The position numbers were made by a program, and so were the translations under genes. A DNA stretch of 39,785 bases, taken from positions 1 to 39,785 of IMG/VR virus record IMGVR_UViG_3300046538_000301. One strand, given 5' to 3'. Below, piece after piece: positions 7,254 to 39,785 of this stretch; position 1 is the stretch's first letter; each line of letters starts with the position of its first letter. Source of the stretch: a virus. The notes under the pieces were generated by a model. The model had not been told where the DNA came from. It ran no database searches and saw nothing but the letters and a program-made list of their open reading frames with translations.

Positions 7254-9459
7254 TGTTTTGGCGCAATTTGCTGAGTATGGCCTGGAGCCTGCGCAGCCTT
7301 TGGTATTCGGCAAGCTGACTCGCTGCAAAACGACCCAAGACAAAGGCAAAGAGAAAAACGGCTGGTACGTGATCCACGAGCACCGGACCGAAAAGAATGA
7401 AATTCTGATCTTCGGTAGCTTTGGCGACTGGCGGTCAGGGGAAACCCAAAAGGTCAAGGTCAAGGCCGGGCGCATGAGTCCTGAGGAGCGTGAAGTTATG
7501 CGCGCTCGTCAGGAGGAGGCCAAACGCCGTGCCGCCGAGGTTGCTGCCAATGCTTCGCGTCGTGCGGCGAACCGTGCGAGCAGCTTGTTCAGGCGTATGC
7601 CTGAGACCGGCAGAAGCTCCTATCTAGACCGAAAGCAGATTGTCGGTTTCCGTGTTCGCTACGCGCCTCGATCAGGCGCTTTTCTTATTCCAATGAGCAA
7701 TGCCCGCGACCAGATCGTAGGCCTGCAAGTGATCTTCCCTGAAAAACAGCAGGACACTGGCCGGGATAAATCCTACTGGCCATACGGCATGTCGAAGGAG
7801 GGCGCGTTTCATCTGATCGGTCCAGATCCTGAGCCTGGAGAGCCGCTGCTGATCTGTGAAGGCTACGCGACCGGCGCAAGCCTTCACATGGCGACATCGT
7901 TCGCGGTCGCCATTGCATTTGACGCCGGCAACCTTCTACCTGTCGCGAAGTTGATGCGCGACCGTTTCCCAGGTCGTCCGCTGATCGTTTGCCGCGATGA
8001 CGACTGGAAAACCAAACGGGTCAATGGTGACCCTTGGAACCCGGGCGAAGAGAAAGGCAGCAACGCAGCACTGATTGTTGGTGGCCAGGTGATCGGCCCG
8101 GTTTTCTCTAGCGACCGGCAGGACAAGTGGACGGACTTCAACGACCTGCATTGTTCTGAGGGGCTTGAGGCTGTTCGTCGGCAGGTTATGGCGGTGGTTA
8201 AGCCTCCTGCAGCTGGTGGTTGGAAAGACCAGTTAGCCCGTGCTGAAAGCGGCACCTTGATTGCTCATATGCAGAACGTTGAATTGATCCTCGGCAACGA
8301 TGAGCGCTGGGCTGGGGTGATCAGCTTCAACGCTTTCAGCTCCAAGGTCGTAAAGCTGCGGGCAGCTCCATACGGTGGCGGTACGGGGGATTGGGCCGAC
8401 ATCGACGACATGCGCGTGATGAAGTGGCTTGCACAGACCTACAACTTGCGTGTGAAGGCGTCCAGTGTCATCGAGGCGGTAAGCATCGTTGCCCATGACC
8501 ACTCGATTCACCCTGTTCGCGAATATCTCCACAAGTTGGAGTGGGACCGAGTGTTGCGCCTGGATCGTTGGCTCACCGACGTGTTGGGCGTAACGCCGAA
8601 CGACTATTCAATGAAGGTCGGCAAGCGATGGATGATTTCGGCTGTTGCGCGGGTAATGAAGCCAGGCTGCAAGGCAGACTCTGTGTTGATTCTCGAAGGT
8701 GCGCAGGGTGCCGGTAAGTCCACAGCCATGAGTATCCTTGGCGGCAGTTGGTTCATGGATACCCCTTTTGCCCTCGGCGACAAAGACGGTTTTCAGGCAA
8801 TCAGAGGCAAGTGGATTGTCGAACTGGGGGAACTGGACAGCTTCAACAAGGCGGAAAGCACGAAGGCTAAGCAGTTCTTTTCAGCTTCCACTGATACCTA
8901 CCGTGAGAGCTATGGCCGAAGAACTAACGACGTGCCACGCCAGTGTGTTTTCGTCGGGACCACCAACCAAGAAGAATACCTAAAAGACGCCACGGGTAAC
9001 CGCCGCTATTGGCCGGTCGCCTGTACACGCGTCGAGCTGGACCTGTTGCGCGAGATCCGCGACCAGCTATGGGCCGAGGCGATGTTCTGCTACGAGTCTG
9101 GCGAAGTCTGGTGGGTGAACCGCGAAGAGTCATCGATGTTCGCCGAGGCGCAGGACGAACGTTTTGTTGTCGACGAGTGGGAAGGTCCAATCCTCACATG
9201 GTTGGAGGAATCCCAGATCGGCGCAACGGCATCAGGCGGCGACTTGCTTGGCACTGCATTGAAGATCGATCCCAGTCATTGGGGCAAGCCCGAGCAAATG
9301 CGGGTCGGCGCCATCATGCACAGGTTTGGTTGGAAGCGTACGCGACTTGCCACAGCGTCGAAGAGTGGGCAGCGGCCTTGGGTCTATAAAAAGCCAGATG
9401 ATTGGGGCGCCGGCAACATGCCGCCGTCGGCTCCGCGTGAGGAGCCTTGCTTTGATTAA
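7243..9459 (+). CDS. Replication primase-helicase: toprim plus VapE/VirE-type ATPase
   Basis: 738 residues. Residues about 1-120 are a charged N-terminal region. A toprim-like domain spans about 195-320 (LLICEGYATGASL near 202, VCRDDDW near 248). A VirE/VapE-type P-loop ATPase follows, with Walker A EGAQGAGKST near residue 485, a Walker B-like IVELGEL, and the FVGTTN..YLKDATGNRRYWPV sensor/arginine-finger region typical of this family. Toprim fused to this helicase is the self-contained replication initiator of many phages and satellites. It sits directly upstream of the octamer array at 9846-10111, its likely target region. No zinc-finger primase motif is obvious. Confidence 0.88.
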   Translation: MLDDVLAQFAEYGLEPAQPLVFGKLTRCKTTQDKGKEKNGWYVIHEHRTEKNEILIFGSFGDWRSGETQKVKVKAGRMSPEEREVMRARQEEAKRRAAEVAANASRRAANRASSLFRRMPETGRSSYLDRKQIVGFRVRYAPRSGAFLIPMSNARDQIVGLQVIFPEKQQDTGRDKSYWPYGMSKEGAFHLIGPDPEPGEPLLICEGYATGASLHMATSFAVAIAFDAGNLLPVAKLMRDRFPGRPLIVCRDDDWKTKRVNGDPWNPGEEKGSNAALIVGGQVIGPVFSSDRQDKWTDFNDLHCSEGLEAVRRQVMAVVKPPAAGGWKDQLARAESGTLIAHMQNVELILGNDERWAGVISFNAFSSKVVKLRAAPYGGGTGDWADIDDMRVMKWLAQTYNLRVKASSVIEAVSIVAHDHSIHPVREYLHKLEWDRVLRLDRWLTDVLGVTPNDYSMKVGKRWMISAVARVMKPGCKADSVLILEGAQGAGKSTAMSILGGSWFMDTPFALGDKDGFQAIRGKWIVELGELDSFNKAESTKAKQFFSASTDTYRESYGRRTNDVPRQCVFVGTTNQEEYLKDATGNRRYWPVACTRVELDLLREIRDQLWAEAMFCYESGEVWWVNREESSMFAEAQDERFVVDEWEGPILTWLEESQIGATASGGDLLGTALKIDPSHWGKPEQMRVGAIMHRFGWKRTRLATASKSGQRPWVYKKPDDWGAGNMPPSAPREEPCFD

Positions 9460-9811: not shown

Positions 9812-10177
9812 TGTCAGAGCTTCCTAACGCTTCCGGCACGGTGTCGTCCCACCTTGTCCCACCTCACTTCGTGGTGGTGGGACGGGTTTCGCCCCCGTAT
9901 ACGCTGGGCCGTCCCACCGTCCCACCTCAAAGCGTGTTTTGCACATGTGAGCGTAGCGGGCACGGTCGTGCGCGTTGTACGCGCAAGCGTGTTTTTAATA
10001 ACTCTCTCTTTACACGGAAAAATAGTAATAGAGGTGGGACGGTGGGACGGGGCTTTGTTTTCGGGGGTTTCATCCGTCCCACCTCTTATAAGCAGGTGGG
10101 ACAGGTGGGACGGCTTGATAAACAGCGAATAGCCGTGATGGTGGTTTCTTTCGTGTTCATACAGTGTTGGTGCTGTG
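9812..10177. repeat. GTCCCACC octamer array, candidate replication origin
   Basis: Ten exact copies of GTCCCACC occur within 266 bp: plus orientation at 9846, 9856, 9911, 9919 and 10076; inverted (GGTGGGAC) at 9876, 10033, 10041, 10095 and 10104. Pairs are spaced 8, 9 or 10 bp. The tandem pair plus TC at 9911-9928 is an exact inverted complement of 10031-10048. Between them lie a TGCGCG/CGCGCA hairpin (9969-9985) and an AT-rich stretch (9990-10030). Arrays of short sites next to an initiator gene and an AT-rich block are the usual form of iteron origins. No credible protein gene is present. A role in packaging or transcription remains possible. Confidence 0.55.
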
Positions 10178-10206: not shown

Positions 10207-10294
10207 TCCGGCTTGCTGCCAGTAAACTGGACCTGTAAAAAGTACTCATCTTCGATAGGTGCGACCGCTTAGAGCGGCAAGCATCAACCAGATC

Positions 10295-10326
10295 AAACCC
10301 GGCCCTCGCGCCGGGTTTTTCTTTTT
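10295..10326 (+). terminator. Intrinsic terminator before the late genes (tR'-like)
   Basis: AACCCGGC (10296-10303) pairs with GCCGGGTT (10310-10317) around a 6-nt loop, followed by TTTTTCTTTTT. A smaller CCGCT/AGCGG hairpin lies at 10265-10277. It would stop transcripts from 10178-10206 unless a Q-like factor acts. Confidence 0.75.
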
Positions 10327-10352: not shown

Positions 10353-10721
10353 ATGGCCGAGCCATTGAGCACGACCGCATCTGTAGTGGTGGCGGGAGCT
10401 GCCGGGGTCGGCGTCGCGGGGCTTTTGACTGGCATTGATATGTTGGCCGCGATTGGCGCACTCGCTGGTGCGTTGGTGTTCTTTACCACCACGGAAGAAA
10501 TGCCAGTGTGGAAGCGCGCTGTCTTTCTGCTGGTGTCGTTCGTCATGGGATACCTGTTTGCGCCGGCACTGACGGACTTCGAAATCTGGGGCATTCGTCC
10601 CTTCAAGTACTCGGGCCCGGCTGCGTTCGGCGCGGCAGTCCTGGTAGTCACTGTCGCGCTTGCCGCGATCAAGCGTCGGGGCAAGTTCGGCCCTGAACAG
10701 CCTGGAGGTCAGGATGGATAA
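10353..10721 (+). CDS. Putative holin, first of two
   Basis: 122 residues with three or four hydrophobic segments (about 10-30, 32-50, 53-72 and 86-105) and a basic C-terminal tail (IKRRGKFGPEQPGG), the usual look of a phage holin or related pinhole-forming protein. It is the first late gene after the tR'-like terminator. A second small membrane protein overlaps its end by 8 bp; such pairs are often holin and antiholin. Assignment rests on topology and place, since the endolysin lies 24 kb away. Confidence 0.65.
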   Translation: MAEPLSTTASVVVAGAAGVGVAGLLTGIDMLAAIGALAGALVFFTTTEEMPVWKRAVFLLVSFVMGYLFAPALTDFEIWGIRPFKYSGPAAFGAAVLVVTVALAAIKRRGKFGPEQPGGQDG

Positions 10722-33477: not shown

Positions 33478-33586
33478 GGCTCAGGCATAGGTTTATCCTT
33501 TTCCAGTAGGGCCGCAGGCATGCGCTACGGCGCTCGGGTATGTGCGTGTGCCATGGGGTCAGATATTCCTCTATGGGTCCCAGAGT

Positions 33587-33615
33587 TTGTGAGACCGTGG
33601 GGAAGCGGGTATTCT
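33587..33615 (+). promoter_or_regulatory. Weak candidate promoter before the glycosyltransferase gene
   Basis: TTGTGA (33587-33592) and TATTCT (33610-33615) with a 17-bp spacer; four of six consensus matches in each box. The expected start near 33622 would fall within the ribosome site of the short leader reading frame. A private promoter would suit a lysogenic-conversion gene. Confidence 0.3.
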
Positions 33616-33627
33616 GTAGGGAGAAAA

Positions 33628-33654
33628 ATGTCTACGGTTTGGGGCAATGCATGA
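33628..33654 (+). CDS. Eight-codon leader peptide coupled to the glycosyltransferase
   Basis: ATG TCT ACG GTT TGG GGC AAT GCA TGA encodes MSTVWGNA. It has the only good ribosome site in the area (TAGGGAGAA) and its stop overlaps the glycosyltransferase ATG as ATGA, while that ATG itself has only a weak GGGG. Translational coupling is inferred; chance is possible for so short a frame. Confidence 0.35.
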   Translation: MSTVWGNA

Positions 33655-34517
33655 CAGACGTATCTGCAGATTCAAAACAAAAACAGAGAATTGCCTGTTG
33701 TGCAATTATGAAAAATGAATCCCCTTATATACATGAGTGGGTTGCCCACTACACCAAGCTCGGATTTGATCATATCTTTATTTACGAGAATGACAGCTCT
33801 GATAAAACCGCATCACTACTAAAATCCCTAGACCAAACCGGATTTATTAAGTTTACGAGTTGGCCATCCTTAGATAGGAGATCTCCGCAGATCAGTGCAT
33901 ATGAGGATGCAGTCTCGCGCACTGATGCTGACTGGATACTATTTTGTGATGCAGATGAATTCCTTGTGCTTAATCAGCACGAAAACGTTCACGAGTTCAT
34001 GGCATCTTTCAGCGAAGACGTGTCCAGCGTGTGTATTAACTGGCGCATATTTGGCTCATCAGGTCAGGAAACAAGAACTGCAGGCCTTGTTCTTGAGCGA
34101 TTCCAGAGAAGCTCGGAGATTGATTTCGATGTAAACCGGCATGTGAAATCTTTTGTGCGCCCTTCCAGTATCACCGAGATGCACATACACGCACCAATCA
34201 CCAGCGGGGCATCGACCTATTCGGACGGAGAGCCCATCTCCTTCCGGGAAGGAGAGCAGGGGATTGCTCCCGAAGTCAGGGCAGATGTCGCGGTGATCAA
34301 CCACTATTTCACTAGAACCAAAGAAGAGTGGGGGGTCAAAAAACTTCGCGGCAATGCGAATCGTTCGATAAATGCTAGAGACAAATTCATTCGTTACCAT
34401 GAAGGCCTTTTTGAAAGGCACGACAGGAATGAAGTTGAGAACACCTCTGCTGTTAAGTATGTGCCTGCTATTCATGAGCTTGTCAGCCGATTTCTCTCGG
34501 ACCTTGGCCGTAAATAA
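33651..34517 (+). CDS. Glycosyltransferase, family 2-like (Glyco_tranf_2_4/GT92 type)
   Basis: 288 residues from the ATG at 33651. Conserved pattern CAIMKNESPYIHEWVAHYTKLGFDHIFIYENDSSD (residues 16-50) and the metal-binding DADEF (near 100) mark the family-2-like glycosyltransferases that act on cell-surface sugars. No membrane segment. Base composition is much more AT-rich than the neighbouring phage genes, so it looks like a recently acquired moron, plausibly altering O-antigen or capsule to block superinfection. The frame extends upstream to 33540 without a ribosome site. Confidence 0.85.
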   Translation: MTDVSADSKQKQRIACCAIMKNESPYIHEWVAHYTKLGFDHIFIYENDSSDKTASLLKSLDQTGFIKFTSWPSLDRRSPQISAYEDAVSRTDADWILFCDADEFLVLNQHENVHEFMASFSEDVSSVCINWRIFGSSGQETRTAGLVLERFQRSSEIDFDVNRHVKSFVRPSSITEMHIHAPITSGASTYSDGEPISFREGEQGIAPEVRADVAVINHYFTRTKEEWGVKKLRGNANRSINARDKFIRYHEGLFERHDRNEVENTSAVKYVPAIHELVSRFLSDLGRK

Positions 34518-35910: not shown

Positions 35911-36972
35911 TTAAGTATTTCTGAAATATTGCTTTACTGCGTCGGAGCCATTGCATTCGAAGGAAATCGCATCACCATTTCTGGCTGTTCTCTGGTAGAG
36001 ACCAAGACCCATCAAGGAGCATTTTATTTCCGTAGTCTGTTTCTGAATCGATTTGAAAAATTCTCTCGCTAACCAAAAGCTCATAAAATCAGCAACTTCC
36101 AGCAGGTGGTGGGATCCGGGTTTGACAAAGCTCGGTCTGGTAATATTGGCGTGGGCAGTTAGATAGATGAATTGCCTATTATGTTGCAATCCAAGAAAGC
36201 ATTCATCAGCCCACCCTTCAGTTCTCTCACCAGTTGAGGTGTCTTTAGTATTGTCATAGATCCAATTTATTCCCATAGAGCTCCTTCTCAATATTTCTAG
36301 GCTGGAAAGTGTCGCTTGCTTGAATATGTCGTCCCGTTGAAGCATAAGCTGTTCTGCGCGCTTCGTCTTATTATCAGGAAGCATGATAGCGCTAGAGACG
36401 TTGAGGCTAGTCAAGTAAGGTCTTGTTTCTTTTATAAGTCTAGCGAACGATTTCATGTGTGAGATTTTCTCAGGTACGGAGGTCAAACTATATTTTTTTA
36501 AGTCCGGATGAGTACTCCATATGTCTGTCGTATGATATGTCCACGTTTCTGGATCTTCACTAGGTCGAATGCTAGATTTTAATTCTAATAACTTTGTCTT
36601 GAAATTCTCCCGTGCTTCTGGGTGCATTCCAATTAGAGTGATGCAAAAAAAGCTTACCTCGCCAGCGTTTGTTTTTATCACTCTATGAGCCTCATCGCCA
36701 TAGAATGTTCTACTGCCTTCGAGGGGTTTTTTTGGAATTTCAAAATTTATGGTCGTGCCGCATTTGCATGGTACTGGAAAACTGACCGGTATCCACATAC
36801 GACCATCATTGGCCTCGATAGGTTGGCGGGGATGCTCCAAATCCTCATTCCAGCTTATCTCGTTAGCTGTATTACAAACTTTGCAAATCGCGCGAACCGA
36901 TTTTAGTTCAGGCAATATGAGTCCAGGGGACTTTCGATAAGGGCCAACAATGCCATTGATTCTGGTCGACAT
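35911..36972 (-). CDS. Zinc-ribbon plus DUF3800-like cargo protein
   Basis: 353 residues from the ATG at 36972 (AGGGAAG upstream); a GTG at 37047 is less likely. N-terminal four-Cys zinc ribbon (CKVC ... CKCG, about residues 30-75), then FYGDEAHRVIKTNAGEVSFFCITLIGM, resembling the first acidic motif of DUF3800 (RNase H-like fold), and a C-terminal HHLLEVADFMSFWLAREFF resembling its closing ADxxxW motif. DUF3800 proteins are uncharacterised and recur in mobile elements and defence islands. Codon use is AT-rich compared with the phage core. The role is inferred as accessory or anti-phage. Confidence 0.6.
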   Translation of the reverse strand: MSTRINGIVGPYRKSPGLILPELKSVRAICKVCNTANEISWNEDLEHPRQPIEANDGRMWIPVSFPVPCKCGTTINFEIPKKPLEGSRTFYGDEAHRVIKTNAGEVSFFCITLIGMHPEARENFKTKLLELKSSIRPSEDPETWTYHTTDIWSTHPDLKKYSLTSVPEKISHMKSFARLIKETRPYLTSLNVSSAIMLPDNKTKRAEQLMLQRDDIFKQATLSSLEILRRSSMGINWIYDNTKDTSTGERTEGWADECFLGLQHNRQFIYLTAHANITRPSFVKPGSHHLLEVADFMSFWLAREFFKSIQKQTTEIKCSLMGLGLYQRTARNGDAISFECNGSDAVKQYFRNT

Positions 36973-37052
36973 ATAACTTCCCTGCGGCGTCGGAACGGTA
37001 CGTAATAGTAGCAGCTCTGCGAATATGCGGAAGGCAGGCAAGCCCACACCAT

Positions 37053-37844
37053 CTACTTTCGTGATAAGGCTTCCTGAGTCAAAAGATATAAGTCCTCAAT
37101 ATCACTACCGGGTGGACCGCGCATCGCAAGCGGAAGTTTGCTGGGGCACTCAGGATCCTCAGTAAAGCCTCGGCCGCGGCAGGCTTCACAGTCCTCACGC
37201 AGATAAAAGCGATCGCAGCATGCGGAGCATTGCAGGAAGATCGAGAAGTTTTCTTTTTCCCAAAGCTCAATGTACAAGGCTATGTTCGCTTCTTCCAGCG
37301 CAATCATGGCTGCGTCAATGGTGGCGCGATAGCAGTCTGGGTCGTCCAGTCTCGTTTTATGCACGCCTTCAACCAGCCGGCCGCGCTCTACCAACGTCAA
37401 CTTTTGCCCTGTCTCGGTATGGATGTGACGATCAATCAACTCTCCATAGGGCTGATAAGACCGCGTGACGACCTTTAGTTTGTCGCCTGCCTCCTGAACC
37501 TGTGCAAAGAAATCCATCGGTCCAGGCTTCGCGCCGGCGCCATGCAGGAAATAGCGATTCCCTTGCAGGCTTCCAACTTGGTGGCCGCAGGCGTTGTACA
37601 CGTCATAGTCGGACGCTGGGTGGCGCCAGTGCATTGGGGCTTCCTCAATGAAGTAGCAGAAGGCGGCGTTGGCACGGTCCACCATGTCGAAACGTTCAAG
37701 TGGGTCTATCGCCCCGATCTCCAGCATCCTATCGGCGAGCCGCTTCAGATATCTGTAGTTGGCCAGTGGGTTGACCCATAGCCGCCTGCTGTCGATCCGC
37801 TCGTGCCAGTCGGCCAAAAACTCGTCCTTCTGGGGGGTAGCCAT
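37053..37844 (-). CDS. LexA-controlled hypothetical protein with C-terminal zinc ribbon
   Basis: 263 residues from the ATG at 37844 (a TTG at 37862 is in frame). The N-terminal helical part (DSRRLWVNPLANYRYLKRLADRMLEIGAIDPLERFDMVDRANAAFCYF) and the central GVHKTRLDDPDCYRATIDAAMIALEEANIALYIELWEKEN are not a family I recognise. Near residues 215-235 is a CSACCDRFYLREDCEACRGRGF zinc-ribbon-like cluster of five Cys. A LexA box lies 21 bp upstream, so it is expected to rise during SOS. It runs 6 bp short of a possible upstream frame of the next gene. Confidence 0.65.
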   Translation of the reverse strand: MATPQKDEFLADWHERIDSRRLWVNPLANYRYLKRLADRMLEIGAIDPLERFDMVDRANAAFCYFIEEAPMHWRHPASDYDVYNACGHQVGSLQGNRYFLHGAGAKPGPMDFFAQVQEAGDKLKVVTRSYQPYGELIDRHIHTETGQKLTLVERGRLVEGVHKTRLDDPDCYRATIDAAMIALEEANIALYIELWEKENFSIFLQCSACCDRFYLREDCEACRGRGFTEDPECPSKLPLAMRGPPGSDIEDLYLLTQEALSRK

Positions 37845-37864
37845 TGCGCATAACCAGTTCAAAA

Positions 37865-37884
37865 TACTGTTTGTATATACAGTA
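37865..37884. promoter_or_regulatory. LexA (SOS) box
   Basis: TACTGTTTGTATATACAGTA contains CTG-N10-CAG with arms close to the Pseudomonas and E. coli LexA consensus. Its centre is 30 bp upstream of the ATG at 37844, where it would cover the promoter. Confidence 0.75.
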
Positions 37885-37983
37885 ATCGAATTTGATTCAT
37901 GGCGCGAGGGTGGGCGGACGAACCGTTGCCTGAGCTTTGAGGGGATGTGGGGGCTACATCGGCAGATGTCGGTTGCTGTAGGA

Positions 37984-38006
37984 AACAGACACCTTAACAG
38001 ACACCT
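37984..38006. repeat. Tandem AACAGACACCT repeats, candidate arm-type integrase sites
   Basis: Two 11-bp copies of AACAGACACCT at 37984-37994 and 37996-38006, spaced 12 bp, stand about 37 bp from the attachment core. Paired direct repeats in this place resemble the arm sites of lambda-type attP. No other copy is noticed on the far side of the core. Confidence 0.4.
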
Positions 38007-38042
38007 GGATTACGCGGGGTAGGCTTAAAGCCCTGAATTCAT

Positions 38043-38091
38043 TGGAGCGGGTGAAGGGAATCGAACCCTCGTTATCAGCTTGGGAAGCTGA
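38043..38091 (-). other. tRNA-Gly(CCC) 3' fragment, attachment-site core
   Basis: Read on the minus strand, this is the last 49 nt of a tRNA-Gly with anticodon CCC: anticodon stem CAGC/GCTG around TTCCCAA, the T arm GAGGGTTCGATTCCCTTC and the acceptor ACCCGCTCCA with an encoded CCA. The 5' half (acceptor, D arm) is absent upstream. The flanking bases extend the anticodon stem into a perfect 12-bp inverted repeat around the anticodon (38070-38096). This is what an att core inside a tRNA gene looks like. It is not a functional tRNA. Confidence 0.75.
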
Positions 38092-38096
38092 TAACG
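38070..38096. repeat. 12-bp inverted repeat centred on the anticodon
   Basis: CGTTATCAGCTT (38070-38081), GGG, AAGCTGATAACG (38085-38096) is a perfect dyad. In the host tRNA only the inner five or so bases are symmetrical, so the outer bases come from the mobile element and provide matching core sites for the integrase around the crossover region. Confidence 0.5.
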
Positions 38097-38107
38097 ACGG
38101 CTTGAGG

Positions 38108-38227
38108 TCACTTTTTGATAATTTTATCCGCGTGGTTGAGCACCATTACAACCTCGGGCTTTTTAGCCGCCGGGTTTGGCTTCGGTTTTTCGGCCGGCTT
38201 TGCGTCAACCTTTTTTTCGTCTGTCAT
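38108..38227 (-). CDS. Lys/Pro-rich 39-residue peptide
   Basis: A short protein from the ATG at 38227 with GGAGTAGGATC upstream, overlapping the preceding gene's stop as ATGA. Residues 4-25 are a Lys/Ala/Pro-rich disordered segment (EKKVDAKPAEKPKPNPAAKKP) and the end is VVMVLNHADKIIKK. It may be an accessory or inhibitor of the membrane protein. No family is recognised, and size makes it uncertain. Confidence 0.45.
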   Translation of the reverse strand: MTDEKKVDAKPAEKPKPNPAAKKPEVVMVLNHADKIIKK

Positions 38228-38748
38228 GATCCTACTCCGTTGGGAAAAGCTGCGATCCAGAAGTAAAGCAGAAGACACGTGCCCAAAAGGCACGTTGAGC
38301 AAAATATTTCTCTGTAGGCACTTTCCAAATAGTCAGTCTTAGCCTTGAGTACGGGTCTGGCCAGCGACAGCGCATCTTGACAGGAAATTGCTACGTTGTT
38401 GTACATCGTTATCAGCTCTTCTTCGTCGGCGAGCTGATTCATGGTTGTGCCAATCGCGATAGTTGGACTGTCAGACAGCTTGATGCTGTTAAAGATACGA
38501 AACCAAGCGGAAAAAAGCGCAATGAACGTCAGTCCAGTTAGGGTCACAAATACCCAGCCGGAAAAGCCTAAGGAACTCATCGCTTGCAGTTTGGAGGACG
38601 CGGCATTTATCAGAGCGGTATAGGCAACGATCCCGATGCTTAAGATGCTCAAAAAGCGACTGGCCTTCTCATCCAGTTTTTTGTATCGATCGAGCTCTTC
38701 GTCTAGCGCTTTCTTCGAAAGCTCGTAGAGGAATTTGTAATTTTCCAC
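38224..38748 (-). CDS. Multi-pass membrane protein, SLATT/Pycsar-effector-like
   Basis: 174 residues, GTG start at 38748 with GGGGGT upstream. The N-terminal helix (YELSKKALDEELDRYKKLDEKASRFLSILSIGIVAYTALI) runs directly into a first transmembrane segment; further hydrophobic segments lie near 66-86 and 146-166. Amphipathic helix plus DEKAS then membrane helices is the layout of SLATT and Pycsar-type TM effectors, in which pore formation follows signalling. No cyclase gene is visible in the window, so a defence role is only a hypothesis. Ordinary stress membrane protein is the alternative. Confidence 0.5.
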   Translation of the reverse strand: MENYKFLYELSKKALDEELDRYKKLDEKASRFLSILSIGIVAYTALINAASSKLQAMSSLGFSGWVFVTLTGLTFIALFSAWFRIFNSIKLSDSPTIAIGTTMNQLADEEELITMYNNVAISCQDALSLARPVLKAKTDYLESAYREIFCSTCLLGTCLLLYFWIAAFPNGVGS

Positions 38749-38837: not shown

Positions 38838-39785
38838 TTATTTGTCTTTCCCAATCTTATTGAACCCTTCTAAATAGTCCCCAAGTATTCCAGCGTTATG
38901 AAGAGTTCGAAATGCATTGCGATGGGCCGCTTGGTGCTCGTCATTTTCTGTGATGCTGCACCATGAGCATCTCACCCTTTTTGAAGGTTCCAGACATTTT
39001 TCGCATCTTTCTTCAGTTGGAGTTATTTCATTCAGAGTGAATAAGTAAGTATTGTCAGTTTCATCGACGAAGAACGGAGTGGTAGTACTTCGTCCAATTC
39101 TCTTCTCGTAGAACTTGCAACCGATTGTAGAGGCCGTTTCGCGGAGCTTGATCTTCGTTGCTTCCGAGGATTTCGCGCCTACGATTATTGCAGTTACGAA
39201 TTCTGACGGAAAATATAACAGTGATAGGTTAGGATTGATCACCGTTTCCGCCGCCTTGGGTGAGACCAGCCTGCGTTCCTGTTCGTAGGACCAGCATTGC
39301 TGTTTTGTAAAATACGCTGCACTGCTGATTGCGTCTCGCAACCACCCAATATACCTAAACTTAGAAATATGGAACGCCTTATCTAACATTTCCTGCATGT
39401 AACCATGAGGCGTGTCTTGGTAGTCGATATCACCAAATGCTGCTTCCCAATTCATCTCTTCTTCGAGCCAATTGGATAGCCCGACTTCGTCTATTTCTAC
39501 AACAAAACCTTGAGAGTTAGCTGCATAGTGCGCCCACATTGGTGTGCTTATAGGTGATTTCGAAAAGCATGTCACGGGGTGCTCAATCACCATTGAAATC
39601 ATCTCATTATAATAGGCGAGTATTTCTGGCTCTTGATCATAATTTATAGTTAAAAAAAACTCGAAAGGGTCGTTATAGTCCTTCAGGTACGAGAGTTTCA
39701 CACTACATGTGCCATCCTTTTGCAGAAATATATCTGCAATGTCGGGTCCAAGATATTTATAGAGTTTGCCCGGCGTGTCTTCCAT
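38838..39785 (-). CDS. DUF2971 family protein
   Basis: 315 residues reaching the window edge, where the ATG lies. DUF2971 features are clear: LYKYLGPD.. at the N terminus, LKDYNDPFEFF (residues 34-44), CFSKSPISTPMWAHYAANSQGFVVEID (73-99) and CWSYEQERRLVSP (164-176). Near the C terminus is a four-Cys zinc-binding-like cluster (CEKCLEPSKRVRCSWC). The family is uncharacterised but frequent in mobile and defence islands. Codon use is AT-rich. Since upstream sequence is not included, an earlier start cannot be excluded. Confidence 0.75.
   Translation of the reverse strand: MEDTPGKLYKYLGPDIADIFLQKDGTCSVKLSYLKDYNDPFEFFLTINYDQEPEILAYYNEMISMVIEHPVTCFSKSPISTPMWAHYAANSQGFVVEIDEVGLSNWLEEEMNWEAAFGDIDYQDTPHGYMQEMLDKAFHISKFRYIGWLRDAISSAAYFTKQQCWSYEQERRLVSPKAAETVINPNLSLLYFPSEFVTAIIVGAKSSEATKIKLRETASTIGCKFYEKRIGRSTTTPFFVDETDNTYLFTLNEITPTEERCEKCLEPSKRVRCSWCSITENDEHQAAHRNAFRTLHNAGILGDYLEGFNKIGKDK

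Follow-up and report, generated by a model that had tools for sequence, protein, structure and literature searches.

The window discussed here is the whole stretch of DNA that was analysed, a viral sequence record 39,785 bp long. Its gene P0001 (7243-9459, + strand) encodes a protein of 738 aa that combines a TOPRIM primase, a VapE-like helicase and a predicted C-terminal winged-helix domain, and that we propose to be a replication initiator. The Pfam matches of P0001 are to Toprim_3 and to the VapE-like family PF05272 (E=6.8e-81), it corresponds to phrog_2249, and it gives a profile match to PriRep1 of SaPI (7PDS, E=2.4e-81); together with a Foldseek structural match of the helicase (E=9.7e-22), these place in P0001 a VapE-like ATPase core homologous to that of SaPI Rep. 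The TOPRIM part resembles P4 alpha (BLASTP, E=3e-16), the similarity being confined to the primase half. In an AlphaFold2 model of moderate confidence (pLDDT 82), the C-terminal domain (residues 641-722; 9163-9408, +) has the order H-E-H-H-E-E expected of a winged helix, and its Foldseek matches, which are weak (best E 0.026), include several winged-helix proteins. This domain is the proposed reader of the repeats described below, and its helix alpha-3 (residues 682-695; 9286-9327, +; codon 686 at 9298-9300), to which a residue-iteron scan drew attention, is the putative recognition helix.

The last early gene, P0002 (9452-9811, +; phrog_4300), resembles antiterminator-Q-like late regulators. 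A Pfam search with P0002 itself was empty, and BLASTP gave no match to the gene at the equivalent place in Marinobacter phage PS3 (PF06530, E=5.6e-10); the place of P0002, and a distant homologue annotated 'antitermination protein' in a Halomonas phage, suggest a Q-type late regulator. A putative late promoter (TTGCTG-17-TAAAAA; 10213-10241, +) was picked out by eye in relatives and in loci with a Q-like gene and no primase; a consensus promoter scan did not call it. The late leader ends in an intrinsic terminator (10295-10318, +), and the first late gene encodes a putative holin (10353-10721, +; PF16931, E=2.3e-16). The repeat array that is our main subject occupies the interval between P0002 and this putative promoter and leader (10213-10318), outside the promoter itself, in agreement with the earlier note on this DNA, which had it ending where the early genes end and the late promoter begins.

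Elsewhere in the window, a glycosyltransferase gene (33540-34517, +; GT92/GT2-like, E=9e-24) directly precedes the lysis genes, and Pfam and PADLOC searches with the leftward genes at 35911-38748 gave no match. The window ends with a leftward gene (38838-39785, -) for a 315-aa DUF2971 protein, a PADLOC defence candidate (PDC-S31, E=1.9e-21).

A mirrored array of octamers

Ten exact copies of the octamer GTCCCACC, five in each orientation, lie in the 266 bp from 9846 to 10111, each of them where the earlier note had reported it. An exact-match count over the whole 39,785 bp found only two others (18264 and 28430, both on the - strand), and hence none of the equally dense clustering elsewhere that the note had named as grounds for rejecting its proposal. 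Shuffles gave an expectation of 1.06 copies per window and therefore about 0.007 per 266 bp, and the Poisson probability of ten or more copies in the array is about 9e-29.

The ten sites form five mirrored pairs about a dyad near 9979.5. The left half-array (9846-9926, +), which is conserved in 206 relatives, has iterons at 9846+, 9856+, 9876-, 9911+ and 9919+, and the right half-array (10033-10111, -) has them at 10033-, 10041-, 10076+, 10095- and 10104-; the pairs 9919/10033, 9911/10041 and 9876/10076 are exact (offset 0), while 9856/10095 is off by 1 bp and 9846/10104 by 2 bp. The 18-bp inverted repeat already recognised in the inner tandem pair (9910-9927, +, mirrored at 10032-10049) is indeed exact, and understates the symmetry, which extends to the whole array. 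Five dyad pairs were never reached in 2000 random placements, whereas 262 of 2000 shuffles of orientation with positions kept equalled the array (so that by this second measure the dyad is not significant); the dyad signal is therefore positional.

The two halves flank a GC-rich palindrome, TGCGCGTTGTACGCGCA (9969-9985, +), and an AT-rich block (9986-10032, no strand assigned). The palindrome, near the dyad centre, is terminator-like and weak as a structure: the segment 9927-10032 folds no more strongly than shuffled sequence (z=-0.56), which disposes of a special hairpin at the centre of the array. The block, a candidate unwinding element, is 70% AT and contains the conserved TCTCTTTACACG; only 0.35% of 47-bp stretches in the window are equally AT-rich. 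An AT-rich block within or next to the repeat cluster is a feature of iteron origins of the P4 and SaPI kind.

These features bear on the possibility that P0001 binds the array as a control or incompatibility site (for copy-number titration, or as a second required site), with the melting origin elsewhere, as for crr of P4. P4 does have crr beside alpha as well as a distant origin, both with TGTTCACC octamers, and GC skew gives no origin signal at the array: the cumulative curve for the window, a check put forward in the earlier note, has no turning point there, and for that reason skew was dropped as an origin marker. On the other hand, the 39,785-bp window has no second octamer cluster, and the array has an AT-rich block of its own near the dyad centre, so we consider a separate melting origin improbable.

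Conservation and gene linkage

A survey of 160 loci with P0001 relatives (75-90% identity), from viral contigs and Pseudomonas genomes, placed the array about 380-670 bp past the primase stop in nearly all those with enough downstream sequence. When a site matching GTCCNACY with at most one mismatch was counted as conserved, a mean of 8.05 of the ten array sites was kept across 206 non-identical relatives, only two of which had fewer than three sites. In the same set, column conservation was 0.83 in iterons against 0.72 in spacers, and the density of GTCCNAY was a median of 8 per 330 bp at the array against 0.17 in the upstream flank. A repeat cluster adjoining the initiator gene, which is again characteristic of iteron origins of the P4 and SaPI kind, is thus the rule among them.

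The converse approach, in which viral contigs were searched with the tandem octamer alone, brought in at least 79 new loci; among the matches listed, 65 of 79 had a P0001-like gene no more than 1.5 kb away, the others being two arrays at contig edges with a Q-like gene, six arrays by other genes and six matches with too few sites. The co-occurrence of array and related primase-helicase that the earlier note had suggested looking for is therefore found from both directions. The six arrays of GTCCCACC type near genes that do not match P0001 (L444, which has a RepA-like ATPase, L383, L398, L369, L386 and L401) may function with different initiators whose word is similar. We also draw attention to L275, which has an initiator with isoleucine at residue 686 and a Q-like gene, yet no array; its sequence past the Q-like gene diverges from that of its near twin L271.

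Could the array instead be the region at which P0002 binds for late transcription, replication starting elsewhere? It lies directly 3' of the Q-like gene, its far end is some 100 bp short of the putative late promoter, and this gene order (Q-like gene, array, putative late promoter) is common to the 206 relatives. However, among P0002 homologues in Pseudomonas genomes, an array (here, two or more sites) accompanied 41 of 43 Q-like genes with an adjacent primase, but none of four without one (Fisher 8e-5), even though all four retained the late leader. In PS3 and the Halomonas phage the array is upstream of the Q gene, and five of the 65 listed array loci beside P0001-like (VapE) genes are without a neighbouring Q-like gene. 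Iteron distance, moreover, is associated with primase distance given Q (Mantel, partial r 0.50), whereas given the primase it is not associated with Q (0.04). We therefore regard binding by P0002 as a poor prospect, slightly less likely than a separate melting origin. A lambdoid Q-binding element was rejected because Q-only loci lack the array although they retain the late leader, and because it lies upstream of Q in the PS3 and Halomonas phages, and the same observations leave without support the further idea in the earlier note that the array couples replication to late transcription. The four loci with a Q-like gene and late leader and neither primase nor array are L168, L320, L321 and L322; L168, an 18.5-kb Pseudomonas aeruginosa record with annotated holin, baseplate and tail fibre genes, is possibly a tailocin.

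Co-variation of iterons with the initiator

The iteron word co-varies with the putative recognition helix alpha-3 of P0001. When all positions of P0001 and P0002 were scanned against the iterons, the best single predictor of GTCCNAT rather than GTCCNAC was isoleucine at residue 686 of P0001 (MCC 0.86; next position 0.67). Independence was assessed on a tree of P0001 residues 1-640, in which four independent pairs agree, none disagrees and one lacks an iteron change (sign test p=0.125, the events being few). Two loci, L029 and L033, are exceptions, having I686 with GTCCNAC iterons; outside the scan set, L298 conforms to the association, as does L271, from a lineage of 69% identity (six NAT, no NAC). 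When the Mantel comparison was divided by primase domain, the signal was 0.33 for VapE and 0.08 for the C-terminal domain, so that this comparison gives no indication in favour of the C-terminal domain.

At greater distances, other primase-helicase lineages have an array in the equivalent place with different iteron words. Marinobacter phage PS3, whose primase is 47% identical, has an array of GGTCACCCC-type 9-mers between primase and Q gene, with 6+6 sites mirrored about 6325.5, and Halomonas phage H4907 has a TCAGACA array between primase and antiterminator, in which dyad symmetry was not seen and which excludes such symmetry as a universal feature. Relatives of the Halomonas helicase have arrays of TTCCGACA, CCCTTCCC, TGTTCCCA, ACCCAACACA or ACCCTAGACA. 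No such array was found at the primase of two more distant VapE phages, Achromobacter Mano and Xanthomonas FoX1. As a separate observation, the TGTTCACC iterons of P4 (L323) and the Halomonas-type arrays of TGTTCCCA, GTCCCCA and CCCTTCCC (L187-L190) seemingly share one pyrimidine-rich theme, despite their differing helicases.

A role for the array with some host or phage protein that has nothing to do with P0001, for example in partition or packaging, is hardly credible: a few similar arrays do occur near other genes (the RepA-like ATPase of L444, and contigs with no P0001 match), but the iteron sequence shifts from one initiator lineage to another and according to residue 686, and most listed tandem matches (65/79) are beside P0001-like genes.

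Proposed origin function and known systems

Taken together, it seems to us highly probable, from sequence comparison, that the array is the replication origin of the phage and that P0001 is its self-contained initiator, with a C-terminal winged helix that binds the GTCCCACC iterons. The earlier note had suggested an origin recognised by the 738-aa protein, and comparison between loci favours this (conservation, swapped iterons, absence of the array where the primase is absent, and co-variation with the helix); physical binding, like the further steps, is inferred. The C-terminal domain of P0001 would bind the iterons, and a VapE-type helicase ring would assemble on each of the mirrored half-arrays, one ring per half. 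Opening would then occur at the 70% AT block that separates the two inner tandem pairs, and two opposed helicases would depart in opposite directions, giving a bidirectional start for which the TOPRIM domain would make primers. More tentatively, and with rather less than even confidence, we suggest that mirrored arrays may represent a widespread, uncharacterised class of dyad origin, in which each half, with its five or six iterons (about one for each subunit), loads one ring and specificity diversifies through recognition-helix changes such as M686I, matched by the rewriting of most iterons.

If so interpreted, the locus offers a concrete pairing of origin and initiator for many Pseudomonas prophages, the replication start being unannotated in the database records examined, and the TOPRIM-VapE fusion ties initiators of P4 type to those of SaPI type. 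The natural variants GTCCNAC/M686 and GTCCNAT/I686 make origin recognition by self-loading helicases testable with unmodified proteins, and the mirrored 5+5 and 6+6 layouts bear on the loading of a pair of opposing hexamers.

A literature search for the tandem octamer found no paper in the collection searched. The premise of the earlier note, that origins for such initiators are poorly described, is only half right, because those of P4 alpha (with crr) and SaPI Rep are close precedents. P4 alpha binds origin repeats via a winged helix (PMC4234260), and P4 has 5+5 annotated TGTTCACC octamers beside alpha, in direct repeats. The likeness to P0001 lies in the TOPRIM primase-helicase, the C-terminal winged helix (predicted here) and the octamer iterons adjoining the initiator gene, five per unit. 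The differences are that P4 has direct 120-bp repeats of TGTTCACC and a separate origin about 4.5 kb off, whereas the present array consists of two inverted halves of GTCCCACC about one dyad, and that the helicase of P0001 is of VapE type, only its primase half resembling alpha in BLASTP. With octamer and layout differing, and a single cluster in the window, this is not a P4 crr/ori proper. Another self-loading helicase, Cch2 of SCCmec, uses its C-terminal domain to bind direct repeats that lie downstream (PMC7581432), a role proposed here for the C-terminal domain of P0001 at its array; Cch2 belongs to another helicase family, and its putative origin has only three 5-nt iterons (AAGTG) and no dyad array.

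In SaPI, the C-terminal domain of Rep binds iterons directly downstream of its own gene, and Rep seems to function as a pair of hexamers (PMC7581432). The helicase of SaPI Rep and PriRep1 (VapE) is homologous to that of P0001 and likewise has an iteron origin directly 3' of its gene, the corresponding array here being known from sequence; P0001 differs in its fused TOPRIM primase and in the iteron GTCCCACC, and the element that carries it resembles a complete temperate Pseudomonas phage, unlike SaPI. The best reading of these comparisons is that the array would work as do the origins of P4 alpha/crr and SaPI Rep, as a known kind of origin in a variant layout.
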